Origin: Chrysophaeum taylorii | Taxonomy: Eukaryota; Sar; Pelagophyceae; Pelagomonadales; Pelagomonadaceae | Direction: 5' to 3' | Length of the DNA: 64,000 bases | Assembly (NCBI GenBank): GCA_029834535.1 | Contig: JAQMWT010000529.1 | Location: forward strand, 62,001 to 126,000 | Shown here: positions 9,719 through 46,456 of the stretch, piece after piece | Numbering within the stretch: the stretch's first letter is position 1 | Layout of the letters: the number at the start of each line of letters is the position of its first letter | Notes under the pieces: model-generated | What the model saw: the letters and a program-made list of their open reading frames with translations, nothing else | What the model was told of the DNA's origin: nothing | The model's database searches: none | Made by a program: the position numbers and the translations under genes

Positions 9719-12700
9719 ATGTGGTGGTGGTGGTGGTGGGGGTTTGTCAGCGGCAGCAGCGACGTGGTGGAGGGCGCGGAGGTTTTGCGCGTCGGAGGTC
9801 TGTTTCCGTTTAGCGACGGGAAGGGCGGGATGTACAGCGACGGTATTTTCCGATCGGTCGCCGCGGCGGCGCTGTTGGGCGTGGAACACTTCAACGCTCG
9901 GAACGGAACGATCGCGCCCGTGCTTTCGAGGAGGAGGTTGCGGCGGTGTTCGATCGAGATGAGGATGAGCGTGGGCGACACTTACGGGAATCCGTCGCGG
10001 GCGATGCGCGCGTACCGCGAGGCTTTGCCGGGGGTCGACGCCTTCGTGGGTCCGGCGAGGTCGGCGTGTTGTCAAGTCGCGGCGACGTCGGCGTCGGTGG
10101 ACGCGGTGCCCGTGGTGTCGTACTGGTCGACGGCGGCTGATTTGGCGTACAAGGATAAATACCCGATGCTCGCGCGGACGATTCCGCCCGATTCTGTCGC
10201 TGCCGAGAAGGCGACCGAGTTCCTCGCTTTTCAAGGTTTTCGCAGAGCTGGGTTGCTATACGTCGACGACACTTTCGGATCGAGCTATGCCAAAGTCATG
10301 ACTCAAACGTGTTCGGACTTGGGGATGCGGTGCGCGTCGACGGGGTACGAGGAGGGCTCGGAGTCGTCAATGCGGAGCGGTTTAGAGTTTTTGAGGTCGT
10401 ACACGATTCTCGTGTTGATCTTGTTCGACGACGATCTGGAGGTTGCGCTCGAGTTAGCTCACGCTGCCAACATGACTGGTCCAGCGACGGCTCTTTTTGT
10501 GACGGACGGCGTGACTCAGCAAAAGTTGGAATCTTTGGAAGGGACGCTTCGGGACGTGGCGAACGGCATGGGTCGCGTGTTCGCCACCGGCTACGTCGAG
10601 TCCTGGGGGCCTTCTCGCAAACTGCGGGAAATTTTTAACGCGAGGAACGCGATGGATTTTAACCAGCATCTTCCCCCAAGCGGCCACTTCACAGAAGACG
10701 AGGACTTGACCTACGACGTCGCGCACTTCGCGTACGACAGCGTCGTCTCGCTCGGCCTCGCGGCCTGCGACGCCGCCGACAAAAACGGCAGCAGCGGCGG
10801 CGGCGGCGTATCTTGGTTGGATTCGTACGCGGCCGAGTGGTGGGGGGGGGGGGGCGGCACGAACTCGACGCCCTGGGGTGTGTCGCTGATGCGAGCCCTC
10901 GTGAGTAGTGGGGTTGCCTTCGACGGCGCTTCTGGGACCGTATCGTACTCGCGAGATTCGGCCGATCGAGTCGACGCGAACCTCGTCGTCCAGAATTTCG
11001 TCGGAAACGAGACCAGAGACGTTTATATTTACGACGACAACACAAACAACGGATGGGTGGGCGGGGGGTTCGTTTATAATTCGGGATCCCAAACGCCGCC
11101 AGCTGATTCGCTCGAACTCGAGTGCGGACCCGGGTCGTTCGCGGCGGCCGACGACAAGACGTGTCGGAAGTGTGCGAAAGGGTATTACAAGTCCGGCACA
11201 ACCTTCGGAACCTCGTCGTGCATTCCTTGCGACGCCTACTCTTACGCCGATAAAGTTGGGAGCTCGGAGTGCACGAGCTGCGGGAAGAACGCGCGAATCG
11301 TCGGGGAGTCGGCGTCTACGTCGAGGTACGACTGCTATTGCGAAGCCGGAAGCTATTCGCGGGTCTGGCCGATTTCGTCGGAAAGAGGGTGCACGAGCTG
11401 CCGACATCTCGACGCCCACTGCGAGGGCGGGTCCTGTCTGCCGTCCCCGAAAAAAACCTACTGGATAGACCCCACGTTTCGCAAAGATCCGACGTCGTAT
11501 CGTTGTCGGCAAGGGTTCTGGTGTCCGGGGTCGAAGAAACCCGGCCGTGCTGCCAACGCGAACCTCACGTTCTGCCGCAACTCGAGGGGAGAGGAACTCA
11601 GGATCAAAACGCCCGAGAACTGGTGTTCGGTCGGCCGCGACGTCGCCGTACCGCTCTGCGACTCGAACTCGGTCGAAGGTAGGAGAAGGTACTTTCAGAT
11701 TTCGAGAGTCAGCATCCGGTGCCCCGACAAGGTGATGTCCCACATGCTCTTCACCGCGCTGTGCTGGTTGGTTTTGGCAGCCCTCTTCGTGACGATCAAC
11801 GAGTTGATAAGACCGCGGTACAAGGTGTTGAACTTGATTTTGGACGTCTACCAAGATCTCGGAATTATCGCGACCTTCCATTTTTACTGGCCGAAATCGT
11901 TGGAAGTGACGTTCGTGGCGTTTTTCATCGCCCTCCTCGACGTCGACACCTACGACCCGACCTGCGCGATTAGGGATTGGGGATTTCCCCACGCTTTTTG
12001 GCTGATGCTCTCGCTGCCGATAATTCACGCCGCGTTTCGCGTCGCGTGGACCGCGTGCACGGCCCCCCGCGACCCCGAGGCGTGGCGCCACACCATCGGC
12101 CGTCTCCTCTCATTTCTCTTCGGCTCTTATCCGTCCCTCATAACTCGCTGCGAATCGGCGTTCACGTGTCGGCACGTTCGAGGTGTCGGCTACAGGCAGG
12201 TCGAGAATCTCGCGCAGTCTTGCGCAGCGCAATCGAATCAAGTACGTCGAATTGTCGCTGCCTGTTACCTCGCGGTGGTCGTGATCGCCGTGCCCGCCTG
12301 CATCTTCGTCCACCTCACCTTTCTTCGCCGACAAAATTTGCTCTGCGCGCGCGAAACTCTCGACAAGTACGGCTTTTTGTACGACTCGTTCAACTCGAAC
12401 GCCCTGCACTGGGGCGTCGTCAGATTCACCAAGCAGGCGCTCCTCTGTACCATAGCCACCACGCTCTGGGCCTCTCCGGCGACCCAGATGCTCGCGACCG
12501 TTTTTCTTCTCACGTTCATCGCCTCCGAACATAGTCGGGCATCCCCGAATCTCGCCGACGTCTGCAACCAGTTCGAGCTCGCGGGCCTAGGCCTCTCCAT
12601 CGTCTGCAGCTGCCTCGGCTTCATTTTCACCTACGTCGAGTCCAACAAAACGATGTCCAAAAGCACGCGCCACGTCTTTTTTTTCCAAGCATTCTTCTTC

Positions 12701-12892
12701 GCGGTCCAAGGGATCTATCTCGTCGCGGGCCTCTACGTCACCTTCAACGAGACCAAGACCGTCGCCGCCCGCGACGCGGCGAAACGTGCCCTTACGGCTG
12801 CTGCTGCGGCGGACAGCACCACCTTCCACGCCGTCGCCCGACGCATCTCCACAAAGCTCCTCCGCGCGGGCCTCGACGATGACGACGACTCG

Positions 12893-12930
<38 letters not shown>

Positions 12931-13516
12931 AACTGCCCGTCTCGAAATTCTAGAAACTTTCAAAGGTCCTTGGCTCAAGAGCTGGGTCGAGGGAAAGACG
13001 TTCCGCGATGATCCCAGGTTTTCGCGCGACCTTTTGAGGTCCTTGGACAGAGCGATCGCCCCCTTCGTCGCCGACGACTCCCTCACGAACAACTTCTCCA
13101 ACTCCTACGAGGCCTCGTTTTACCGCCACCTCGACGTCTGCTTCCCCTCGCTCCTCGACCTCCTCGTCACCTGCTCCGACGACCTCCAGCACACCATCAA
13201 AAACGCCGTCACGGCCATCGCCTCCGCGACCTATTTCCTCGAAACATCCCGCTTCTCTCTGAGCGCGTGCCTCGAAAAAATCGACCGCAGTTCGGTCCTC
13301 TTTTTCCTCCTCCACTCCTCCCGCGCCCACCGCGCGATGTTCCAGGACTTCATCCGCCGCATCGTCAGCGACAACCCGACCCACAGCGCGCAGGAGCACC
13401 GGGCCAACGCCCTCAAGCTCGCCCTCGCGCTCCAGCGAGCCTACCGCCTCCGCAAGGGACTCCAAACTCTTTTCACCACTTCCACCAAAGCGGCGGCGGT
13501 CGCCTCCTCGTCCTGA
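9719..13516 (+). CDS. Receptor with PBP-like ectodomain, cysteine-rich repeats and multi-pass membrane region
   Basis: This 1265-residue protein starts at the first ATG after an in-frame stop at 9680; a TGG run gives it a tryptophan-rich N-terminus that may serve as a weak signal peptide. Residues about 20-460 resemble the type I periplasmic-binding/ANF receptor ligand domain (VGGLFPFSDG...FVGPARSACC...VSYWSTAADL). Residues about 465-640 hold paired-cysteine motifs of the GCC2/GCC3 or ephrin-receptor-like type. From about 670 to 1020 there are roughly eight hydrophobic helices, then a long Asp run encoded by GAC repeats (about residue 1055-1075) and a helical cytoplasmic tail. The role is probably small-ligand sensing at the cell surface; the ligand is unknown. 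The gene starts only 81 bp from the transposon's right end and converges on the next gene with 22 bp between stops. Confidence 0.75.
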
Positions 13517-35047: not shown

Positions 35048-36436
35048 ATGGAGAAGGCGATCGAGCGGACGGACCCCAGAAGAGAGAAGGTGGAACGAGT
35101 GGACGCTATCGTCGAAAATGGGCTAAACATCATCGAGACTCTCTTGACGATTGCAAAGGCGATTCCCGTCGTCGGTGGGATATGCGGCGTGGCTAAAGAG
35201 ATCCTCGTGGACGTGCGAAAGTACAAGGACAAGGCGGATGATGTGGCACAGGCCGGTCGTCGCGTCCTCGGAGTCCTCGAATTCCTCCGACTTCTCGCGA
35301 GTCGCGTCGACAAGCTAGCCCCAGAGTCAACGCGCGAGGTGCGCGCTGCAATGGAAGCCATCAAGCAGTTACTGGAGGAATTCAAGGCGGCCGTTAAAGA
35401 ATTCGGCAAGCCTGACTTCTTCATAAAAGCCTGGACGCTGCGCAGGTACGCGGGAACGCTCTCGCGCCTCGACGAGAAAATGCGCGACGAGCTCGATTTC
35501 CTGACGAAGGCGTACGGCCTTGCAAGAGACGAAAACGTCGAGGGCTTGCTAGAAGATATTACGTACAAGCTCGAGGAGGCTCTCCAGAAGTATGTCGACG
35601 CGCGCGACGACGACAAGGCACTCGAAGACGCGGCCGAGGAGGGCGGCGTCGACCCGAAAGAGGCCACGACGGCGCTCAAGGAGCTGCACCGAAAGATGGA
35701 CGAGCTTAATTTTCAGATCGAGGAACTTATTGCCGAGTTTACGCTCGCCTTAGAACGCTCCGACGATGCTGCTGTCCAGAACGTGGACGACAAGTTGTCC
35801 CAATTGATGGCCGAGACGAGTTCGCGTCGAGTACGCAAAAAATGTCTCGTCTTGCAGCTGCTCGTGGCGAGCTTCGCTGGCGACACCAAAACCATCGAAG
35901 CTCTTATAGAGGAGACGCCAACTATCATCCACGAGCAGTTATCCAAAGTCGGCGGTGCCTGTTGGGCGCTCTCGGCACTTCATATCTCAGCGTTGTGCGG
36001 CAACTTAATGGCCATCCAGACGCTAAAAAACATGAACGGCGACTTCACCATAGCCGACGCGCATAAGCGAACGCCACTACATCACGCCGCTGCTCGCGGG
36101 CACGTCAAAGTGGTATCGTACTTGCTAAGGCACTGTGGTGTCGATGTCGACGCCGTTGACCGCAGAGACCGGACACCCTTGATGCGCGCTAGCTACGAAG
36201 GATTCATCGACGTCGTCGAAAAACTTGTGAATCTGGGAAAAGCCGATGTGAACGCCGGGTTTGATGACGACGACGGCATCCAAACTGCCGTCGACATTGC
36301 TCTCTATCGAGGTCACACGGACGTTGTTAATTTCCTTGAAGAGCGTGGGGCGTTTCGACTCTCAAAACCAATTCGAATGAATCCTGACGGTGCCCCGTGG
36401 TTTACGCAGACTCTTGATCGCAGGGACTATGTGTGA
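35048..36436 (+). CDS. HeLo/MLKL-like helical domain plus ankyrins (likely first exon of a giant NLR-like gene)
   Basis: From the first ATG this frame has 462 codons. Residues about 18-180 are all-helical; the segment NIIETLLTIAKAIPVVGGICGVAKEI followed by regularly spaced helices resembles the four-helix bundle of MLKL and fungal HeLo/plant helper-NLR death domains, which permeabilise membranes. Residues 185-265 are coiled-coil-like, similar in position to the MLKL brace. Residues about 270-440 form four or five ordinary ankyrin repeats (TPLHHAAARGHVKVVSYLL, TPLMRASYEGFIDVVEKLV). The frame closes with TGA at 36434-36436, but that TGA sits inside GTGAGT, a consensus splice donor, and the next large frame is in the same phase. 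The domain match is by pattern; the gene itself is well supported. Confidence 0.7.
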   Translation: MEKAIERTDPRREKVERVDAIVENGLNIIETLLTIAKAIPVVGGICGVAKEILVDVRKYKDKADDVAQAGRRVLGVLEFLRLLASRVDKLAPESTREVRAAMEAIKQLLEEFKAAVKEFGKPDFFIKAWTLRRYAGTLSRLDEKMRDELDFLTKAYGLARDENVEGLLEDITYKLEEALQKYVDARDDDKALEDAAEEGGVDPKEATTALKELHRKMDELNFQIEELIAEFTLALERSDDAAVQNVDDKLSQLMAETSSRRVRKKCLVLQLLVASFAGDTKTIEALIEETPTIIHEQLSKVGGACWALSALHISALCGNLMAIQTLKNMNGDFTIADAHKRTPLHHAAARGHVKVVSYLLRHCGVDVDAVDRRDRTPLMRASYEGFIDVVEKLVNLGKADVNAGFDDDDGIQTAVDIALYRGHTDVVNFLEERGAFRLSKPIRMNPDGAPWFTQTLDRRDYV

Positions 36437-36597
36437 GTCGGAGGCGTGGGTCGGAATGCAAGCGCGCGTCTTCTGCGGCCCCCTATCGAAGAAGAGCAGA
36501 GCGACCAGCAAATTTCGAACGATGGCGTCGCTGCCGAGAGTCTTCCGGGCACGCACGATCCAGATTTCACCGAAAACAAAATCATCGTCGACTCTAG
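36433..36597 (+). other. Candidate 165-nt intron joining the two NLR frames
   Basis: The donor GTGAGT begins at 36433 and contains the TGA stop. A candidate acceptor, gactctag, ends at 36597. The length is divisible by three and removal joins 35048-36432 to 36598-42910 without frame change, giving 2565 residues. Other AG acceptors at 36499, 36508, 36563 and 36637 give wrong phase. The alternative is stop-codon loss by mutation or readthrough; the intervening 53 codons are open. Confidence 0.55.
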
Positions 36598-39500
36598 TCC
36601 AACGAAACCCATTCCAACGAAACCCACCGAACTCCAGCGGTCTCGCGGCGTCGGCAACCTCGACGCAGGTCATCTCGTACGCTTGCCGACGACGGGCCGG
36701 CCCGTGTTTGAAGTCGTCGACTTCATCGCGCGAGGTGCTCATGGTGAAGTCTACGCGGTTCGATCGACGAGTCGCACTTTGGGGAAGTTTGCGATGAAAC
36801 GCGTCCGCTCGGATGATGATAAGCTCCGAGGAGCTTCGGTGGCCGTAAAGAAGAATATTACGTCGAAGGAGCTTCGACTCTGTCGCGAAGCCTTGCTCAT
36901 GGCCGAGCTCGGTACGCACCCACACATCGTATCGCTGCAGTACTGCGTCGTGTCGGGCCAAAACGCGGAATTCTTAATCTTCATGACTCTCGTCGACGCC
37001 TGCAACTTGGAACGACTCGCCTCGAGCGGCGACCTTTACGAAGGTGACACTCGTTCAGTTCAGGCGTCTATATTGTCGATACTTCGGGAGCTGGCTTCGG
37101 CGCTCGCGTTTTGTCATTCGCGAGGCGTACTGCATCAAGACGTCAAGCTCGAAAATGTATTAATCGACACCGCGGGTCGCGCGTATCTGGGAGATTTTGG
37201 CCTCGCTAGCCACGGGGAAGGGGTCGACGCCGAGCTCCGTGCTCCTTTCGAGGGTTGCACGCTTCCGTACGCGTCTCCCGAAGTTGCCGCGGCGTGGTCT
37301 AGGCAAGCTAGAGAGGTGGTGTTACCACGTGTTTCTCCCGCCGAGACTGACATCTGGGCGTTTGGAATTGTCGCGCTACACTTGTACTATGCTGATGAGG
37401 AAAGATTTCCTGAAATGCGGACGGCGCTCGAGGGTATCGTCAGGATGCAGCCCCCAGACGTGAGCTGGGGGCGGCTCGAAGTTGACGCTTGGTTGCGTAG
37501 TAATCAATCGCTCTCCATTCAGGATAATACGCTCGACGGTGCCATGTTATTCAATTTGTCGCCGAACAACCTTCACGATGCTTTACCGTGGCTCCCAAAG
37601 ACGCGAGATCGAGAAAGATTACGTCGTATGCTTTTGTCGCCTCCTCTCGCCATGAGCATGCTTGTCCAGCAATGCCTCGCCGCCGACGTCACCCAAAGAC
37701 CAACGTGTGGTGCGGTGTTGCTGGAAATGATGCAAGTTCCCGCAACGTCGACTCATCATCATCATCATCATCATCATCCTGTGGTTGATGTCGCAGAGAT
37801 GCTGCTCAACATTGGGCGTGCGGTGGTCGAGCTAAATGATGTCGATCTTGCGCGCAGGGCACTCGAGGCTTCCGTTGCGAATGGCGGCGACGCGGCAGAG
37901 TGTTATGCGTTGATAGCGAGTGCGCAATTGCGCGACGGCAGGTGCGAGGAAGCATTGGTTGCGTGCGATCGGGCTTTGAGCAACGACGAAGCGCACGGCA
38001 GTGCGCTTTTTGTCAAGGCGGAGGCAACGTATCGCCTCGATTCTTCGGAATCCTTCTTCGTCGATGTCATACGCCGCGCGCGATTGTATGATGCAGAGCT
38101 CTTCCACGCGCCGCGCGCGGTAGAAGGGGCCATTGCTTACCTCGAGGCTGCCAAAGACGAAGCGGACTCGGCGCGCGACCCCGTCACCAACGACCGCGTC
38201 TCTGTGTCTGCGTGCGTGCGAGACCTCCCTCCGAACATTGTCCATCGATGCGACGTAAAGACTGAGTTTGGGCGGGCGTTTCCGTCCACGACGATGGAAT
38301 GTTGGAGCGTTCGAGGTGCCCTCGCTGATGTCTTGCACACCGAAGCCGTCGAAGCCGCGATGCGCACGGGTCGCGTTGTGATCGAGGGAGACGCATGCTC
38401 GGGTAAAGGGTGGATTCTGCGAGCATTCGTGGTTGCGCTTTGTGAGCAGCAACTCGATAACGGATCGGACGAATCGAGCGACTCGGAATTCGTGCTCCCT
38501 TTGACAATCCCTCTTTCAAGCATCGAGAATCCAGAGATGGACTGGCTTGGCGGCGCAATTGATAGTGTTCGAGATGGCGGCGACGCCCTTCGAGCAGCGC
38601 GGATCGACCAACGTCTTGTACTTTGTCTCGACGGCCTCGACGAAGTTTCGCCCGTCACCCGACCGTCGCTCGTCGAGAAAATTGTCGAGTACGCTAGAGG
38701 TTGTCCACTAACTGTCATCACCTCGCGTCCGGCTGCAGCGAACGTCGGCGATCTCGCTCCGCACGGTTTCGCGTTTCTCAGCGTTGCCCAAGTCGATCGC
38801 AGGCGCGTCGAGGATCTCGGAATTCCTCCCGACTTCGCGAGCCTTGTGGAGACTCCTCTCTCGCTTCGGCTCGTGTTGCTTGCGTTGTCTTCTATTGGAG
38901 AATTGCAGACGCCACTTGTTCTTCGACATCGATCCGATTTGTTCCGCGTCGCGAACGAGGAGTTCGTGGCTCGCGCCGTTGCGCCGACGCGACGTGACGG
39001 AGCTCTCGTGGTCGCGCGAGATGTTCTCCGGGAGTGCGGAAGTTCAAAAGTGCGCCAGTTATTCGAGCAGCTTGCGCTCGCGGCGCACGAAGATCGACGA
39101 AAATTGATTAAACGCGCGGACCTCAAGGGCTTAGCATCCCAGCGCTTGGCAGCAGCTGTCTGGTGCTTAGCGCGGTCCGGGCTGTTGCCTCCATTCGTGC
39201 CGCGCGGCAGCAGCTCGGTTGCGTACTTCCACTTGACGTTCCAGGAATATTATGTCGCGCGTATACTTGGATCTAACAATTTGCTTGTCGGAGACAGGTT
39301 CGACCTTGGCAACCCGTGGTGGCAAACATCAGCGCTCTTCGCGTTTCAATTTGCGGAGCCGCGTGAACGCGAGCGTGCGCTCGACGCTCTTTCTCGGAAG
39401 ATTCCCGCATTGCGGATTGGTGACATGGTCGAAGTGTATTTGGAGAAATTTCGGAGTTATAGTCCACATACTGTTTTTTCTTTGGACGGGTTCGTTTCGA

Positions 39501-42500
39501 ATCGTAAAATTGGTGTCAAAATGTATTCGTGGTACGAAACAGAAGAAGTCTCCATAGAACGCGTGCGGCGAAATGTTGAAGGAGCTGCAGCGCTCGCACG
39601 GCGAGCGGCAGCAGAGGACGAAACTGCGCTCGTGGCAGGACTTTTAGATCGTGGTGCCGACCTCGTAACGCCAGTCGATTCCACGACGCAAGATAGCGCA
39701 CTGCATGCGGCCGCGCGGTCTGGCAGGGCCGAGTGTGCCCGACTCTTGCTTCGAGCCGGCGCGTGGTTAGGCTCTTCGAATAAGTTCGGTTCAAATCCGC
39801 GTGATCTCGGTTTCTCTCGCGCGGTCGAAGTTCAACGAAGAGCCGAGATGGTTCGTATCTTTAATCCACCTCAATGTGACAAGGAACTCGGCGCTCATCC
39901 TATCGTTCCGTATGTACTTGAATGGGTCGACAACGACGAGGAATCTGACGCAAATCCTCAAGGGTGGAGCGATGAGGTTCGTTTGTACGCGTTCGCGCAA
40001 GCGTGTCATCGAAGGCGAGAGCGAGCTGCGGCGAGACTCGCGTCGTTCGTCGGTGTGAATAGTCGTTTCCCTCGCGGAGTTAGTGCAACGCTCCATTTCG
40101 CCGTAGTGAATTCGTGCACTGATGCCGTAAGCGTGCTGCTCGAACGAGGAGTCCAATTGCATGTTCGTGTGGGAGAGTCAGCATTGGCACTTGCTTCGAG
40201 GTTGAATCGCGTCGATGCAATTTCGGTATTGCTTCAGAAAAATCAGTTTGACGAGGAATGTTTGGTGCTGCAACCTGCTGCGCAGTTTGGTTTTATAGAG
40301 TGTGTCCGCGTGTTGATCGAGAATGGCGCCGACGTCGACAAAGCGACGACCGACAATGGTGCGACCCCGCTTCTCGTGGCGGCTCTGAACGGCCACGTGA
40401 ACTGCGTCCGGCTGTTGATCGTGAATGGCGCCGACGTCGACAAAGCGACGACCGACATTGGTGCGACCCCGCTTCTCATGGCGTCTCAGAATGGCGACGT
40501 CGACTGCGTCCGGGTGTTGATCGAGATGGGCGCCGACGTCGACAAAGCGACGACCGACATTGGCGCGACCCCGCTTCTCGTGGCGTCTCATAACGGCCAC
40601 GTCGACTGCGTTCGGGTGTTGATCGAGAAGGGCGCCGACGTCGACAATGCGACGACCGACGATGGCGCGACCCCGCTTCACGTGGCGTCTCTGAACGGCC
40701 ACGTGGACTGCGTCCGGCTGTTGATCGAGAATGGCGCCGACGTCGACAAAGCGATAACCAACGACGGCGTGACCCCGCTTTCCGTGGCGTCTCGGAACGG
40801 CCACGTCGACTGCGTCCGGATGTTGATCGAGAAGGGCGCGGACGTCGACAAATCGACGACCAACAATGGCACAACCCCGCTTTACGTCGCGTCTCATAAC
40901 GGCCACGTCGACTGCGTGCGGGTGTTGATCGAGAATGGCGCCGACGTCGACAAAGCGAGGACCGACGATGGCGCGACCCCGCTTTACATGGCGTCTCGGA
41001 ACGGCCACGTCGACTGCGTCCGGGTGTTGATCGAGAATGGCGCGGACGTCGACAAAGCGAGGACCAACGATGGCACGACCCCGCTTTACATGGCGTCTCG
41101 GAACGGCCACGTCGACTGCGTCCGGATGTTGATCGAGAAGGGCGCGGACGTCGACAAATCGACGACCAACAATGGCACAACCCCACTTTCCGCGGCGTCT
41201 CAGAACGGCCACGTCGACTGCGTGCGGGTGTTGATCGAGAATGGCGCCGACGTCGTCAAAGCGACGACCGACGATGGCGCGACCCCGCTTTACGTCGCGT
41301 CTCATAACGGCCACGTCGACTGCGTCCGGGTGTTGATCGAGAATGGCGCCGACGTCGACAAAGCGAAGACCGAAATTGGCGTGACCCCGCTTTTCGTGGC
41401 GTCTCTGAACGGCCACGTCGACTGCGTTCGGGTGTTGATCGAGAAGGGCGCCGACGTCGACAAAGCGACGACCAACAATGGCACAACCCCGCTTTCCGTG
41501 GCGTCTCATAACGGCCACGTCGACTGCGTCCGGGTGTTGATCGAGAAGGGCGCCGACGTCGACAAAGCGACGACCAACAATGTCACAACCCCGCTTTCCG
41601 TCGCGTCTCAGAAGGGCCACGTCGACTGCGTCCGGGTGTTGATCGAGAATGGCGCCGATGTTGACAAAGCGACGACCGACGATGGCGCGACCCCGCTTTA
41701 TGTCGCGTCTCAGAACGACCACGTCGGCTGCGTTCGGGTGTTGATCGAGAATGGCGCGGACGTCGACAAAGCGAGGACCAACGATGGCACGACCCCGCTT
41801 TCCATGGCGTCTCATAACGGCCACGTCGACTGCGTGCGGGTGTTGATCGAGAATGGCGCGGACGTCGACAAAGCGAGGACCGACGATGGCACGACCCCGC
41901 TTCACATGGCGTCTCAGAACGGCCACGTCGACTGCGTCCGGGTGTTGATCGAGAATGGCGCTGACGTCAACAAAGCGACGACCGACATTGGTGCGACCCC
42001 GCTTCTCGTGGCGTCTCATAACGGCCACGTCGACTGCGTCCGGGTGTTGATCGAGAAGGGCGCCGACGTCGACAAAGCGAAGACCGACAATGGCATGACG
42101 CCGCTTTCCGCGGCGTCTCATAACGGCCACGTCGACTGCGTCCGGGTGTTGATCGAGAAGGGCGCCGACGTCGACAATGCGACGACCGACGATGGCGCGA
42201 CCCCGCTTCTCGTGGCGTCTCTGAACGGCCACGTGGACTGCGTCCGGCTGTTGATCGAGAATGGCGCCGACGTCGACAAAGCGACGACCGACGATGGCGC
42301 GACCCCGCTTCTCGTGGCGTCTCTGAACGGCCACGTGGACTGCGTCCGGCTGCTGATCGAGAAGGGCGCCGACGTCGACAAAGCGACGACCGACGATGGT
42401 GCGACCCCGCTTCTCGTGGCGTCTCTGAACGGCCACATCGACTGCGTCCGGGTGTTGATCGAGAATGGCGCCGACGTCGACAAAGCGAGGACCAACGATG

Positions 42501-42910
42501 GCGCGACCCCGCTTTACGTCGCGTCTCAGAACGGCCACGTCGGCTGCGTCCGGGTGTTGATCGAGAATTGCGCGGACGTCGACAAAGCGACGACCGACGA
42601 TGGCGCGACCCCGCTTTACGTCGCGTCTCAGAACGGCCACGTCGGCTGCGTCCGGGTGTTGATCGAGAATTGCGCGGACGTCGACAAAGCGACGACCGAC
42701 GATGGCGCGACCCCGCTTTACGTCGCGTCTCAGAACGGCCACGTCGGCTGCGTCCGGGTGATGATCGAGAATGGCGCTGACGTCAGAGGGACGACCTTTT
42801 GCAACGTATGCCTCGTCGCGTTGCGAAGAATCCAGAAATTAGGGACGACCTTTTGCAACGTATGCCTCGTCGCGTTGCGAAGAATCCAGAAATTAATCGC
42901 ATGCTATTAG
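36437..42910 (+). CDS. Kinase-TPR-NACHT-ankyrin part of the giant NLR-like gene
   Basis: This frame (about 2155 codons) has no ATG before the kinase Lys, so it is unlikely to be a separate gene. Counting from 36446: kinase domain about residues 90-440 with glycine loop GAHGEV, Lys in FAMKRV, catalytic loop HQDVKLEN (Gln replaces the usual Arg), DFG in GDFGLAS and YASPE. An eight-His run follows near 432-440, then two to three TPR-like helix pairs. The NACHT module has P-loop GDACSGKG at 648-655, Walker B LVLCLDGLDEV near 723, TSRP, and the winged-helix hallmark FHLTFQEYY near 932. Ordinary ankyrins (about 1070-1270) precede an array of 24 near-identical 34-residue units. The expected role is NTP-dependent sensing coupled to kinase and death-domain output. 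Highly uniform repeats and transposon-rich flanks fit a fast-evolving immune-type receptor. Confidence 0.8.
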   Translation, partial: VGGVGRNASARLLRPPIEEEQSDQQISNDGVAAESLPGTHDPDFTENKIIVDSSPTKPIPTKPTELQRSRGVGNLDAGHLVRLPTTGRPVFEVVDFIARGAHGEVYAVRSTSRTLGKFAMKRVRSDDDKLRGASVAVKKNITSKELRLCREALLMAELGTHPHIVSLQYCVVSGQNAEFLIFMTLVDACNLERLASSGDLYEGDTRSVQASILSILRELASALAFCHSRGVLHQDVKLENVLIDTAGRAYLGDFGLASHGEGVDAELRAPFEGCTLPYASPEVAAAWSRQAREVVLPRVSPAETDIWAFGIVALHLYYADEERFPEMRTALEGIVRMQPPDVSWGRLEVDAWLRSNQSLSIQDNTLDGAMLFNLSPNNLHDALPWLPKTRDRERLRRMLLSPPLAMSMLVQQCLAADVTQRPTCGAVLLEMMQVPATSTHHHHHHHHPVVDVAEMLLNIGRAVVELNDVDLARRALEASVANGGDAAECYALIASAQLRDGRCEEALVACDRALSNDEAHGSALFVKAEATYRLDSSESFFVDVIRRARLYDAELFHAPRAVEGAIAYLEAAKDEADSARDPVTNDRVSVSACVRDLPPNIVHRCDVKTEFGRAFPSTTMECWSVRGALADVLHTEAVEAAMRTGRVVIEGDACSGKGWILRAFVVALCEQQLDNGSDESSDSEFVLPLTIPLSSIENPEMDWLGGAIDSVRDGGDALRAARIDQRLVLCLDGLDEVSPVTRPSLVEKIVEYARGCPLTVITSRPAAANVGDLAPHGFAFLSVAQVDRRRVEDLGIPPDFASLVETPLSLRLVLLALSSIGELQTPLVLRHRSDLFRVANEEFVARAVAPTRRDGALVVARDVLRECGSSKVRQLFEQLALAAHEDRRKLIKRADLKGLASQRLAAAVWCLARSGLLPPFVPRGSSSVAYFHLTFQEYYVARILGSNNLLVGDRFDLGNPWWQTSALFAFQFAEPRERERALDALSRKIPALRIGDMVEVYLEKFRSYSPHTVFSLDGFVSNRKIGVKMYSWYETEEVSIERVRRNVEGAAALARRAAAEDETALVAGLLDRGADLVTPVDSTTQDSALHAAARSGRAECARLLLRAGAWLGSSNKFGSNPRDLGFSRAVEVQRRAEMVRIFNPPQCDKELGAHPIVPYVLEWVDNDEESDANPQGWSDEVRLYAFAQACHRRRERAAARLASFVGVNSRFPRGVSATLHFAVVNSCTDAVSVLLERGVQLHVRVGESALALASRLNRVDAISVLLQKNQFDEECLVLQPAAQFGFIECVRVLIENGADVDKATTDNGATPLLVAALNGHVNCVRLLIVNGADVDKATTDIGATPLLMASQNGDVDCVRVLIEMGADVDKATTDIGATPLLVASHNGHVDCVRVLIEKGADVDNATTDDGATPLHVASLNGHVDCVRLLIENGADVDKAITNDGVTPLSVASRNGHVDCVRMLIEKGADVDKSTTNNGTTPLYVASHNGHVDCVRVLIENGADVDKARTDDGATPLYMASRNGHVDCVRVLIENGADVDKARTNDGTTPLYMASRNGHVDCVRMLIEKGADVDKSTTNNGTTPLSAASQNGHVDCVRVLIENGADVVKATTDDGATPLYVASHNGHVDCVRVLIENGADVDKAKTEIGVTPLFVASLNGHVDCVRVLIEKGADVDKATTNNGTTPLSVASHNGHVDCVRVLIEKGADVDKATTNNVTTPLSVASQKGHVDCVRVLIENGADVDKATTDDGATPLYVASQNDHVGCVRVLIENGADVDKARTNDGTTPLSMASHNGHVDCVRVLIENGADVDKARTDDGTTPLHMASQNGHVDCVRVLIENGADVNKATTDIGATPLLVASHNGHVDCVRVLIEKGADVDKAKTDNGMTPLSAASHNGHVDCVRVLIEKGADVDNATTDDGATPLLVASLNGHVDCVRLLIENGADVDKATTDDGATPLLVASLNGHVDCVRLLIEKGADVDKATTDDGATPLLVASLNGHIDCVRVLIENGADVDKARTNDGATPLYVASQNGHVGCVRVLIENCADVDKATTDDGATPLYVASQNGHVGCVRVLIENCADVDKATTDDGATPLYVASQNGHVGCVRVMIENGADVRGTTFCNVCLVALRRIQKLGTTFCNVCLVALRRIQKLIACY
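40268..42784 (+). repeat. Array of 24 ankyrin units of 102 bp plus a partial unit
   Basis: The spacing between successive GCGACCCCGCTT words is 102 bp (for example 40361 and 40463), so each unit is 34 residues, one more than a standard ankyrin. Most units share nearly all bases; the two units between about 42512 and 42715 are identical in protein. Differences concentrate at unit positions 2, 3, 6, 15, 19, 26-30 and 32, which lie on the first helix and the hairpin loop. Confidence 0.95.
42787..42894 (+). repeat. 54-bp tandem duplication at the 3' end of the NLR-like gene
   Basis: Two exact or nearly exact copies (42787-42840 and 42841-42894) starting AGGGACGACC and ending CAGAAATT. They encode the repeated C-terminal GTTFCNVCLVALRRIQKL. 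In the +1 frame the same DNA reads RDDLLQRMPRRVAKNPEIN, which looks more like ordinary protein, so the present reading frame may be shifted here. Confidence 0.9.
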
Positions 42911-42916
42911 AGACAG

Positions 42917-43936
42917 ACAAGTGCAGGCCAGTAAGTTCGCCAGTAAGTTCACCTGGTCCCAATCTCTAACCCCAGTAAGTTCACCTGGTCCCAGTAAGTT
43001 CACCTAGTCCCAATCTCTAACCCCAGTAAGTTCGGCGTAAGCCCACTCGTGCTCACATCTACTCACCCCACTCTCCTTCGAGCTCGTCGCTCTCACCCCC
43101 GCCAATCTAAGCTGCTTTGATCCGTACACGCCGCTAGCCGTTGCGTTCACTCTAAAAACCCCAGTAAGTTCGCTTGATCCCAGTGAGTTCACCTGGTCAC
43201 TAAGTTCACCTAGTCCCAATCTCAAACCCCAGTAAGTTCACCTGGTCCCAGTAAGTTCACCTACAGTGCGCGTGTAGACGCCGGGAGGGGGCTTATCGGT
43301 ATTGCGCAGCACGTGTGGGGTAGGGTGGAGTCGTCGACTCAGAAGAGGATATCCTCGGGGTTGCCGATCGACAGAGAGCCACGTAGAGCTGGACGTGGCA
43401 GAAGACGGGCTTCGCCAAGAGGACGCCGACCTCGCGGGGCGTCTGGCCCTGGCTCTTGGTGATCGTTTGGCGTCGGCGGGCCTTAAGGGATACAGGTTGG
43501 AGGAGCCTCGGTGACAACGACACGATCGATCATGTATCTGGTACCGTTGCAGTGGCCGTGCGACGGGTCGAGGTTGCGAAGACTTTAAGCTCGCGATCAA
43601 AGTCAGCATGCCGTTGGTTGTCAGGGAGTTCAAAACTCTACTGTAAAGAGCGAGGCGTCGTCTTCCGACCCAGCCTAGTCAGCCGAAAAGAACTCCGACG
43701 CCTCGTCTCCGGGAAAAAAAGGCCGCGGTCATGCGCGCGTTGTCAGCATCGACAACATCGTTTCGACGGGGCGTGAGAATGGCGCGCTGAAAGAGCCGCC
43801 GCGGGTCGTGGAAATAGTCTGCGAGGTCGCCGTAGACGGCTTGGAGGATCACTGTCTGGCTCTCGCGCCTACCTGATCCTTACTCTCGCGCCTATCTGAT
43901 CCTTACCCTAAATCGAGGGACAAACAGAATTAGCAG
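42917..43936 (-). mobile_element. Non-autonomous Helitron-derived element, copy C
   Basis: On the minus strand the copy runs from about 43930 through the CCCTCGATTTAGGG tract and helicase relic (about 43870-43265) to the minisatellite, ending GGCCTGCACTTG at 42918-42929 followed by T. Its 5' tip is missing where it meets copy D. Its 3' end lies eight bases after the stop codon of the NLR-like gene. Confidence 0.7.
43265..43870 (-). pseudogene. Pif1/Helitron helicase C-terminal remnant (copy C)
   Basis: Same relic as copy A with very similar sequence, including TITKSQGQTPREVGVLLAKP in one frame. Frameshifts separate the blocks. Confidence 0.65.
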
Positions 43937-44998
43937 TCCTAACTACTAATCGACAGATGTTTGTCTGTCTGTTTGTTTGTCTGTCTGTTTGTTTGTCCCT
44001 CGATTTAGGGTAAGGATCAGATAGGCGCAAGAGTAAGGATCAGGTAGGCGCGAGAGCCAGACAGTGATCCTCCAAGCCGTCTACGGCGACCTCGCAGACT
44101 ATTTCCACGACCCGCGGCGGCTCTTTCAGCGCGCCATTCTCACGCCCCGTCGAAACGATGTTGTCGATGCTGACAACGCGCGCATGACCGCGGCCTTTTT
44201 TTCCCGAAGACGAGGCGTCGGAGTTCTTTTCGGCCGACTAGGTTGGGTCGGAAGCCGACGCCTCGCTCTTTACAGTCGAGTTTTCAACTCCCTGACAACC
44301 AACGGCATGCTGACTTTGATCGCGAGCTTAAAGTCTTCGCAACCTCGACCCGTCGCACGGCCACTGCAACGGTACCAGATACATGATCGATCGTGTCGTT
44401 GTCACCGAGGCTCCTCCAACCTGTATCCCTTAAGGCCCGCCGACGCCAAACGATCAACAAGAGCCAGGGCAGACGCCCCGCAAGGTCGGCGTCCTCTTGC
44501 CCAAGCCCGTCTTCTGCCACGTCCAGCTCTACGTGGCTCTATGTCGATCGGCAACCCCGAGGATATCCTCTTCTGAGTCGACGACTCCACCCTACCCCAC
44601 ACGTGCTGCGCAATACCGATAAGCCCCCTCCCGGCGTCTACACGCGCACGGTAGGTGAACTTACTGGGACCAGGTGAACTTACTGGGGTTTGAGATTGGG
44701 ACTAGGTGAACTTAGTGACCAGGTGAACTTACTGAGACCAAGTGAACTTACAGGGGTTTTTAGAGTGAACGCAAAGGCGAGCGGCGTGTACGGATCAAAG
44801 CAGCTTAGATTGGCGGAGGTGAGAGCGACGAGCTCGAAGGGGAGTGGGGTGAGTGGATGTGAGCACGAGTGGGCTTACACCGAACTTACTGGGGTTAGAG
44901 ATTGGGACAAGGTGAACTTACTGGGGCCAGGTGAACTTACTGGGGTTAGAGATTGGGGCCAGGTGAACTTACTGGCGAACTTACTGGCCTGCACTTGT
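43937..44998 (+). mobile_element. Non-autonomous Helitron-derived element, copy D
   Basis: This is the most complete copy and a good reference for the family. It has TCCTAACTACTAATCGACAG at the 5' end, a TTTG/TCTG run, CCCTCGATTTAGGGTAAGGATC, the helicase relic at about 44064-44657, the minisatellite at about 44650-44985 and GGCCTGCACTTG at the 3' end, followed by the T that starts copy E. Total length is about 1.06 kb. It lies head-to-head with copy C. Confidence 0.75.
44064..44657 (+). pseudogene. Pif1/Helitron helicase C-terminal remnant (copy D)
   Basis: The first 45 residues read ILQAVYGDLADYFHDPRR and AILTPRRNDVVDADNARM. LRNLDPSHGHCNGTRYMID begins at 44335 in another frame. KSQG and PKPVFCHVQLYVALC follow. 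A two-base loss in the KSQGQ codons shifts the frame. No active helicase is possible. Confidence 0.65.
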
Positions 44999-46456
44999 CC
45001 TAACTACTAATCGACAGATGTTTGTCTGTCTGTTTGTTTGTCCCTCGATTTAGGGTAAGGATCAGATAGGCGCGAGAGTAAGGATCATGTAGGCGCGAGA
45101 GCCAGACAGTGATCCTCCAAGCCGTCTACGGCGACCTCGCAGACTATTTCCACGACCCGCGGCGGCTCTTTTAGCCAGCGCGCCATTCTCACGCCCCGTT
45201 GAAACGATGTTGTCGATGCTGACAACGCGCGCATGACTGCGGCCTTTTTTTCCCGGAGACGAGGCGTCGGAGTTCTTTTCGGCTGACTAGGCTGGGTCGG
45301 AAGACGACGCCTCGCTCTTTACAGTAGAGTTTTCAACTCCCTGACAACCAACGGCATGCTGACTTTGATCGCGAGCTTAAAGTCTTCGCAACCTCGACTC
45401 CCTGACAACCAACGGCATGCTGACTTTGATCGCGAGCTTAAAGTCTTCGCAACCTCGACCCGTCGCACGGCCACTGCAACGGTACCAGATACATGATCTA
45501 TCGTGTCGTTGTCACCGAGGCTCCTCCAACCTGTATCCCTTAAGGCCCGCTGACGCCAAACGATCAACAAGAGCCAGGGCCAGACGCCCCGCGACGTCTT
45601 CTGCCACGTCCAGCTCTACGTGGCTCTCTGTCGATCGGCATCCCCGAGGATATACTCATCTGGGTCGACGACTCCACCCTACCCCACACGTGCTGCGCTA
45701 TACCGATAAGCCCCCTCCCGGCGTCTACACGCGCACTATAAGTGAACTTACTGGGACCAGGTGAACTTACTGGGGTTTGAGATTGGGACTAGGTGAACTG
45801 AGTGACCAGGTGAACTTACTGAGACCAGGTGAACTTACTGGGGGTTTTAGAGTAAAGGGTTTTTAGAGTAAACTCAAAGGTTGGCGGCGCGTGCGGATCA
45901 AAGCAGCTGAGATTGGCGGAGGCGAGAGCGACGAGCTCAAAGGAGTTGGTTAGAGCTAGGTGAACTTATTACGAATGGTATGAGGCGTTAGACTAGCGAT
46001 AAGGGAAAGACGTAAGGATACTGGATACGTGGTGCAGGGGTAAGTGTCATAGCTTCTTCACACAGGTGCTGGAAAAGAAGGAAAAGGAAAAAGGGGTAAG
46101 TGAGGTCCTCACACAGGTGCTGGAAAAGAAGGAAAAGGGAAAAAGGGGTAAGTGAGACGCTCACAGAGGAGAAGCTTTGAGGAAGACGTCACATTTGAGG
46201 AAGACGTCACAGAGGCATTGTGGCAAGAAAAAGAGACAACAGAGATCAGGGCGAAGATCACGAAGTGAGGTAACGAGCACGAAGCCGGAGGAGGAAGGAG
46301 TTTCCGTACTGCGGGTGAAAATGTCGCTAAGATTGTTAAGGCGGGGTATGTGCTTGAGATCACTGACCAGGTGAACTTATATGAAACTTACTGGGATTAG
46401 GAGAACTTACTGGGGTTAGAGATTGGGACTAGGTGAACTTACTGGCCTGCACTTGT
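44999..46456 (+). mobile_element. Non-autonomous Helitron-derived element, copy E, enlarged
   Basis: Begins exactly at the 3' end of copy D, a head-to-tail arrangement. The helicase relic spans about 45112-45735 and includes a local 65-bp tandem duplication (45335-45465). The 3' minisatellite is interrupted by about 500 bp of extra sequence (about 45860-46365) that contains two 57-bp units of a GGTGCTGGAAAAGAAGGAAA repeat. The copy closes with GGCCTGCACTTG at 46445-46455 next to T. Confidence 0.65.

Follow-up and report, generated by a model that had tools for sequence, protein, structure and literature searches.

In necroptosis, the sensor, the kinase, and the executioner reside on several separate proteins, the first domain of NACHT proteins is usually an effector, and plant ZAR1 has a pore-type head and a leucine-rich repeat (LRR). 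In this study, we describe a locus of the pelagophyte alga Chrysophaeum taylorii that lies in a 64,000-nucleotide stretch of DNA, referred to below as the window (assembly GCA_029834535.1, contig JAQMWT010000529.1, positions 62,001 to 126,000 of the forward strand), together with its sister genes. The locus is on contig C529 of the 70.8-Mb assembly (697 contigs), and all of the sister genes come from the same genome; loci and contigs are given here as L and C numbers. The genome gave 84 light-harvesting matches, and one of its antenna proteins is closest to FCP-type chains, which by itself would point to an alga with antenna proteins of the fucoxanthin type, probably a stramenopile. The layout of the family, i.e., a helical bundle, ankyrins, a kinase fold, a TPR region, a NACHT module, and further ankyrins on one chain, is real in four paralogs, whereas the window copy is split by a stop codon and is most likely a decaying member.

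The available passages of two reports describe animal MLKL as a four-helix bundle, a brace, and a pseudokinase (PMC8141879, PMC12881547). Among fungal NOD-like receptors (NLRs), HeLo-like heads, PKinase domains, and ankyrins all occur, as far as the parts of the papers at hand extend (PMC4986451, PMC12258605); PKinase is recorded in 12 Sordariales NLRs, C-terminally in 9 of the 12, and PNP_UDP is a canonical head (PMC12258605), while the HeLo-type head and the kinase are on different proteins in the fungal NLRs described in those parts. ZAR1 works with the pseudokinase RKS1, which relays recognition (PMC8141879, available passages), and the candidate ROCO receptors of brown algae are LRR-ROCO proteins in the excerpt available (PMC11378527). 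A bundle and a kinase ahead of NACHT in one chain were not found in the available portions of published fungal NLR descriptions, and the layout is not mentioned among the titles and abstract openings listed or in the passages covered, a scope outside which lie bioRxiv and most subscription papers.

What the algal family probably shares with animal MLKL is an MLKL_N-like N-terminal bundle followed by a kinase fold that is without DFG in the unbroken copies. However, the algal chain has ankyrins between the bundle and the kinase, in addition to a NACHT, a TPR region, and a long ankyrin array, and no RIPK-type partner is known for it. Its probable HeLo/MLKL-type head, NACHT, fast-changing C-terminal repeats, and alternative PNP_UDP head are held in common with fungal NLRs in the passages available (PMC4986451, PMC9815663, PMC12258605), but the algal family puts the kinase fold and TPR between the head and the NACHT. 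The proposed NTPase switch coupled to a recognition-relaying pseudokinase has its parallel in ZAR1/RKS1 (PMC8141879, in part), although RKS1 is a separate protein and the algal parts are all in one chain. Like the brown-algal ROCO proteins, which the accessible text presents as candidate immune receptors with shuffled modules (PMC11378527), the ROCO relative found here (L014) is algal and shuffled; it differs in having PNP_UDP and an MLKL-like head, on two frames that a stop separates. The layout had been predicted to be new. Its parts are already known from fungal NLRs, judging from the available portions of two papers (PMC4986451, PMC12258605), whereas their combination is unusual; neither it nor its repeated occurrence among paralogs nor the pseudokinase pattern turned up in the part of the literature searched.

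The original prediction, made from the letters of the window alone, named the order bundle, ankyrins, kinase, TPR, NACHT, and ankyrin array. A Pfam scan of the two open reading frames (ORFs) of the locus returned MLKL_N, Ank, Pkinase, TPR_16, NACHT, and 26 Ank stretches in that order. The core kinase motifs that it reported are present as AMK, DFG, and SPE, with HQD in place of HRD; LCLDGLDE and FHLTFQEYY were both located in ORF2, and its count of 24 homogenised ankyrin units agrees with the 24.3 copies given by Tandem Repeats Finder. The features are as follows (E, expect value).

35048..36433, + strand: ORF1, 471 amino acids, containing the MLKL-like bundle and N-terminal ankyrins; the first ATG of the frame is at 35048
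35174..35578, + strand: MLKL/HeLo-like helical bundle, matching PF22215 (profile positions 2-133 of 142; ORF residues 43-177)
35861..36301, + strand: N-terminal ankyrin block (Pfam Ank, 1.2e-20; Ank_2, 2.7e-20)
36434..36436, + strand: in-frame TGA in the linker, splitting the frame; ORF1 and ORF2 are in the same frame
36437..42907, + strand: ORF2, 2154 amino acids, in the frame of ORF1, containing the kinase, TPR, NACHT, and about 24 ankyrins
36710..37720, + strand: protein kinase domain (Pfam Pkinase, 3.7e-26) with AMK, HQD, DFG, and SPE
37808..37987, + strand: TPR-like helices (TPR_16, 3.2e-4, 21.5 bits, below the cut-off of 32.7)
38375..38740, + strand: NACHT NTPase core (Pfam E 0.006, 16.9 bits, cut-off 26.7; E 0.00034 when scanned alone)
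38387..38410, + strand: Walker A, GDACSGKG, with Gly at the usual Ser/Thr place after GK
38615..38644, + strand: Walker B, LVLCLDGLDE, a motif reading
39227..39253, + strand: FHLTFQEYY motif, common to the six bacterial NACHT proteins examined
40304..42784, + strand: homogenised ankyrin array (24.3 copies of a 102-bp unit)
42787..42895, + strand: exact 54-bp tandem duplication, with cap-like residues in a frame other than that of the array

The start of ORF1 is at the position homologous to the first Met in the L010 (C534) frame, while ORF2 has a mechanical GTG start at 36446 and the first Met of its frame at residue 119. The linker sequence on either side of the TGA corresponds to uninterrupted coding sequence in L009 and L013; it can also be aligned, with gaps, to the broken copies L010 and L011. 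By-eye comparison shows that a C-terminal cap ends the arrays of L010, L013, L015, L017, and L020; it is out of frame in the window copy, and the array of L009 (C309) likewise ends without it. For the window copy alone, and compatibly with the readings of the family discussed below, it is rather probable that the locus is a pseudogene, its ORFs being either relics or a truncated bundle-ankyrin protein with an untranslated remainder: the TGA falls in a linker that is coding in the paralogs, the cap lies out of frame with the 54-bp duplication, and L011, L012, L015, and L016 are broken like the window copy. On the other side, both ORFs otherwise stay open, for 1.4 and 6.5 kb, with the kinase motifs kept, the cap is also missing from L009, whose frame is otherwise unbroken, and the lesions may stem from a sequencing or assembly error or from a new intron, for which the GTGAGT overlapping the stop may serve as a splice donor.

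The N-terminal DNA of the window has 17 matches in the genome, and twelve 9.9-kb stretches around matches were compared. The order bundle-ankyrins-kinase-NACHT-ankyrins was seen in 8 of these 12 (L009-L012 and L015-L018; 39-81% identity per matched main stretch), several with broken frames, and C73 shows the same order. When a kinase at E <= 1e-10 and a NACHT at E <= 1e-3 are counted, both are present at 12 loci (C529, C309, C324, C207, C538, C27, C534, C73, C358, C366, C551, and C437). The N-terminal domain that contains the bundle (N-domain), the kinase, and the NACHT are in the same open frame in C309 (3406 amino acids), C27 (2699), C538 (3144), and C73 (2339), as read directly for the first three and in L059 for C73. 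The one-chain layout is accepted because these four frames are uninterrupted; the prediction of one chain thus holds for the four paralogs and fails for the window copy, and the alternative that its two frames belong to separate genes is contradicted by the paralogs, in which both halves share a frame. In C534, the reading frame that begins with the N-domain stays open until a frameshift that comes after it has entered the NACHT, and the frames of C207, C358, C366, and C551 are each interrupted in several places. C74 is a divergent member with a frame of 1838 amino acids, which contains ankyrins and TPR, no kinase recognised by Pfam, and a NACHT match that covers only the C-terminal part. The ratio of nonsynonymous to synonymous substitution rates (dN/dS) is below 1 in all pairs, ranging from 0.16 to 0.70 over 91 pairwise values from four regions with broken copies included: 0.36-0.70 for the N-domain (28 pairs), 0.16-0.51 for the N-terminal ankyrins (21 pairs), 0.22-0.37 for kinase-TPR (21 pairs), and 0.23-0.42 for NACHT (21 pairs). 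The recurrence of the domain order and the dN/dS values are more than chance. As a side observation on copy number, MLKL_N and light-harvesting matches are at near-identical coordinates on C25 and C521, which are probably duplicate or haplotype contigs, so that copy numbers may be inflated.

The kinase fold divides the copies. The window copy, C534, C324, C366, C551, and C207 retain the DFG aspartate, which is replaced in C309 (GFG), C27 (GFG), C538 (NFG), C73 (GFG), and C437 (NFG). All four unbroken bundle-bearing copies (C309, C27, C538, and C73) are without it, and all five broken but readable ones (the window copy, C534, C366, C551, and C207) keep it. The association of DFG loss with an unbroken frame (4/4 vs 0/5) gave p 0.008 in a Fisher test that was post hoc and made on related copies. 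Left out of it were C358, whose frame breaks at the motif, C324 and C437, which have no bundle, C74, which starts inside the bundle and has no recognisable kinase, and the fragment C90. The DFG aspartate is lost in the unbroken copies; therefore, a kinase that acts on its own executor would not be the maintained form, which looks like a bundle and a pseudokinase, as in animal MLKL. Of the sensor, kinase, and executor that had been proposed for one chain, the sensor and switch parts do look NLR-like, whereas the proposal that the kinase activates its own executor is at odds with the unbroken bundle-bearing copies. Judging from the motifs, a pseudokinase switch or a decoy would fit better than a kinase that phosphorylates its own executor.

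The N-domain is likely MLKL/HeLo-like, as its helical pattern had suggested: profile comparisons give moderate support, and matches to solved structures are weak. MLKL_N is the top Pfam family for the window N-domain (23.1 bits, E 5.7e-5, cut-off 27), the next family having an E of 0.0098. It matches 5 of 8 paralog domains at E <= 1 (best, 1.1e-6) and, once the receptor-kinase relatives described below are added, 6 of 12 at E <= 0.01 (best, 9.8e-7), with RPW8 matching 2 of these 12 (best, 0.0029). A genome search with PF22215 yielded 21 matches, 11 of them above the cut-off; these include the C309 copy (29.5 bits), the one paralog of the NACHT family to exceed it, and not the window copy. Seven of the 21 coincide with the 31 places found by the window protein, where 0.006 were expected, an overlap to which a helical composition in common could add. 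Against solved structures, the 8-domain profile gave three matches at E <= 10 with MLKL at the top (E 0.2), and the 12-domain profile gave ten, six of which are MLKL (E 0.13-0.57). When the 12-row profile was compared, profile against profile, with seven MLKL_N-type sequences from the alga's own genome, the score was 41.5 (E 2.3e-5, probability 76%, 159 columns), as against at most 20.7 in 40 column shuffles and 19.5 for the reversed profile.

Two features of NLR/STAND (signal transduction ATPases with numerous domains) proteins were found, namely, a NACHT domain and C-terminal superstructure-forming repeats (the ankyrin arrays), while the canonical Walker A GK[ST] is missing from 7 of the 8 readable loci. 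NACHT PF05729 matches 5 of 6 members at E <= 0.1 (best, 3.4e-8), and C27, C324, and C534 exceed the NACHT cut-off on their own in the genome search. Bacterial relatives of the NACHT part were found at 21 loci, and all six of those examined have a Pfam NACHT. The NACHT profile had one match at E <= 1 among solved structures, thymidylate kinase (0.5). Because the Walker A ends in GKG, ordinary adenosine triphosphate hydrolysis by this predicted NACHT should not be assumed.

The window array has 24 units, 23 of them canonical, with a best pair at 0.97 identity and a mean pairwise identity of 0.75; this 75% is below the 85% used for fungal NLRs, although array means are not the exact fungal measure, which asks for 85% or more between units across 100 or more amino acids. 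The mean is 0.82 in C534, 0.81 in C366, and 0.43-0.74 in five other arrays. Units of the window array are 0.72 identical to those of the C309 array, so that the identity within the window array scarcely exceeds this value, and 0.48 to those of the C437 array, which is far lower. At ankyrin positions 1, 3, 4, 6, 10, 11, 14, and 27, which were chosen on the window array, the ratio of nonsynonymous to synonymous polymorphism (pN/pS, point estimates) is 1.70 in the window array, 1.50 in C309, and 1.52 in C366; for the rest of the unit it is 0.44, 0.49, and 0.23, respectively, and 0.23-0.53 across six arrays. This pattern resembles that of fungal NLR repeats as presented in the available part of one report (PMC4986451).

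We favour, at about even confidence and from sequence comparison, a reading of the family as NLR-like (STAND) sensor-executors of the MLKL type, of which the window locus would be a disrupted member. In intact members, the homogenised ankyrin array would bind a ligand, and the NACHT module would exchange nucleotide and oligomerise, as in its family. The kinase-fold domain, whose motifs mark it as catalytically inactive in the unbroken copies, would relay the change and free the bundle, by analogy with MLKL. Clustered bundles would then act on a membrane and cause ion flux or cell death; the membrane action of the bundle is what we infer from this likeness.

Several results weigh against this reading. 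The window copy is probably not functional as one chain. Its MLKL_N match is below the cut-off of 27 (20.9 bits, E 2.8e-4 in the ORF scan; 21.9 bits in the genome search), and an unrelated envelope glycoprotein ties with the best MLKL structure at 0.13 in a range (0.13-0.57) that is itself weak. The E of 2.3e-5 needed three more L054-like rows, two of them below the MLKL_N cut-off; with four MLKL_N-kinase sequences, E was 0.0016 (probability 16%) for the 12-row profile and 0.0087 for an unrelated helical region of the family used as a control, and the window family alone showed no profile-profile signal with three MLKL_N proteins (E 0.46). Among the other copies, C538 is without the N-terminal hydrophobic segment and has a shortened bundle, in which the first ~46 residues and an inner stretch are absent; the open frame of C309 extends far upstream of its N-domain; and that of C74 begins inside the bundle (match from residue 86). 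The window NACHT falls short of its cut-off (16.9 vs 26.7 bits) and is not among the 16 matches of the genome search, and the Walker A ends in GKG at seven of the eight loci that can be read, GKT being confined to C437. Finally, pN/pS at the eight positions, selected on the window array itself, is only 1.03 in C534, 0.79 in C27, and 0.69 in C538.

The absence of the DFG aspartate from all four unbroken copies with a bundle, at a kinase-TPR dN/dS that is still 0.22-0.37, would also suit an integrated decoy. In that case, the kinase fold would be bait: its contact with a kinase-targeting pathogen factor would be sensed, and the NACHT would in turn trigger the bundle with no need for catalysis. 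The available passages of PMC12258605 read the C-terminal PKinase of nine Sordariales NLRs as likely integrated decoys. We nevertheless consider a decoy unlikely: the algal kinase is central and adjoins the NACHT in 12 of 12 loci with both, which is not the picture of a sporadic insertion, and a kinase also follows the bundle in the receptor-type proteins L031 and L035, which points to a working pair.

These receptor-type proteins (L031, L035, L036, L039-L042, L044, and L047) have outer parts that are rich in Pro/Ser/Thr or contain FG-GAP repeats. L031 and L035 each have a single frame that runs from an outer part through a hydrophobic stretch (by eye) and the N-domain to a kinase, while FG-GAP repeats are in the frame of the N-domain match in L036, L039, L040, L041, L042, L044, and L047. 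The window-family profile finds its clearest N-domain relatives here (L031, L035, L036, L039, and L040; E 5.3e-28, 178 columns). That these relatives stand behind a hydrophobic stretch in receptor-type proteins, and that the L031 kinase keeps HRD and DFG, would agree with a signalling scaffold, i.e., a bundle that dimerises or tethers kinases to the membrane and gathers them without forming a pore. Such a scaffold seems improbable to us, given that the first domain in NACHT proteins is generally an effector and that PNP_UDP, the canonical NLR head, takes the place of the bundle in C324.

Three further explanations can be set aside briefly. Two unrelated adjacent genes are ruled out because the paralogs hold both halves in one frame; an old intron spanning the TGA is unlikely, as the flanks of the stop are continuous coding sequence in L009 and L013; and a viral origin was rejected, as no relative of the N-domain was found among 39 pattern matches when viral contigs were scanned with its alignment and the neighbouring ORFs (ten scanned, five with Pfam matches) include Sec23 and a DNA primase large subunit.

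The bundle also appears on a ROCO gene. L014 encodes the N-domain and Roc (5.4e-7), then a stop, and then COR-A (6.9e-6) and PNP_UDP (2.2e-5) in the same frame. The C324 gene (L058), 20 kb away on the same contig, is a single frame of 3017 amino acids with PNP_UDP (1.3e-4, below the cut-off) and LRRs up front, where the bundle would stand, before its ankyrin-kinase-NACHT part. The PNP_UDP regions of the two genes are 80% identical over 311 amino acids, and the N-domain tree pairs L010 with L014 (90/91), while the kinase tree pairs L010 with L013 (100/99). These pairings are as expected if, as we infer, the head of the ROCO gene was taken from an L010-like gene, which thereby lost it. Taken by themselves, L014 and L058, ~20 kb apart, show an apparent exchange of bundle and PNP_UDP between a ROCO gene and a kinase-NACHT gene.

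Elsewhere in the genome, clear MLKL_N matches with a same-frame kinase behind them are found in L051 (C565, 7.7e-18), L052 (C25, 5.5e-17), and L053 (C309, 4.5e-17); in L052, the kinase is completed in the next open frame, which also holds an armadillo array (Arm, 5.7e-136), giving a kinase-ARM form of MLKL. L054:728-5314 (C359) is one frame of 1529 amino acids with an MLKL-like head (25.7 bits, below the cut-off), NPHP3_N (2.2e-17), which belongs to the NACHT clan, and 14 WD40 stretches; the NACHT-WD40 receptors of fungi have a similar layout. PADLOC was not informative: its matches in the window part are mainly to kinase domains, those in L009 are to kinases and ankyrins, and L054 has a single weak Avs1b match (0.0027). 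Just downstream of the window gene, the same peptide is encoded on opposite strands (43238-43633, - strand; 44064-44576, + strand), with an exact 61-bp tandem of related DNA at 45336-45459; this inverted repeat is perhaps a mobile element. About 21 kb upstream, an ORF of 1265 amino acids (9719-13516, + strand) has an ANF_receptor ligand-binding region (1.2e-27) and an ephrin-receptor-like motif (5.6e-6) and is possibly a surface receptor.

A more far-reaching interpretation, which we put forward only tentatively, is a single-chain necrosome in a photosynthetic protist, i.e., an MLKL-type executioner under its own pseudokinase and an on-board NACHT-ankyrin receptor, set within a wider cell-death system centred on the bundle. 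That the receptor kinases, the MLKL-kinase-ARM form, the NACHT-WD40 protein, and the ROCO proteins share this head type as parts of such a system is a comparably speculative extension. Because receptor-type kinases and a ROCO gene also carry this head, and a sister gene has PNP_UDP in its stead, the idea of an interchangeable effector is directly testable. If the interpretation is true, the MLKL pairing of a bundle and a kinase fold would also work inside NLR-like receptors, and the family would offer a system in which to test how the decision to die is taken in single-celled eukaryotes.

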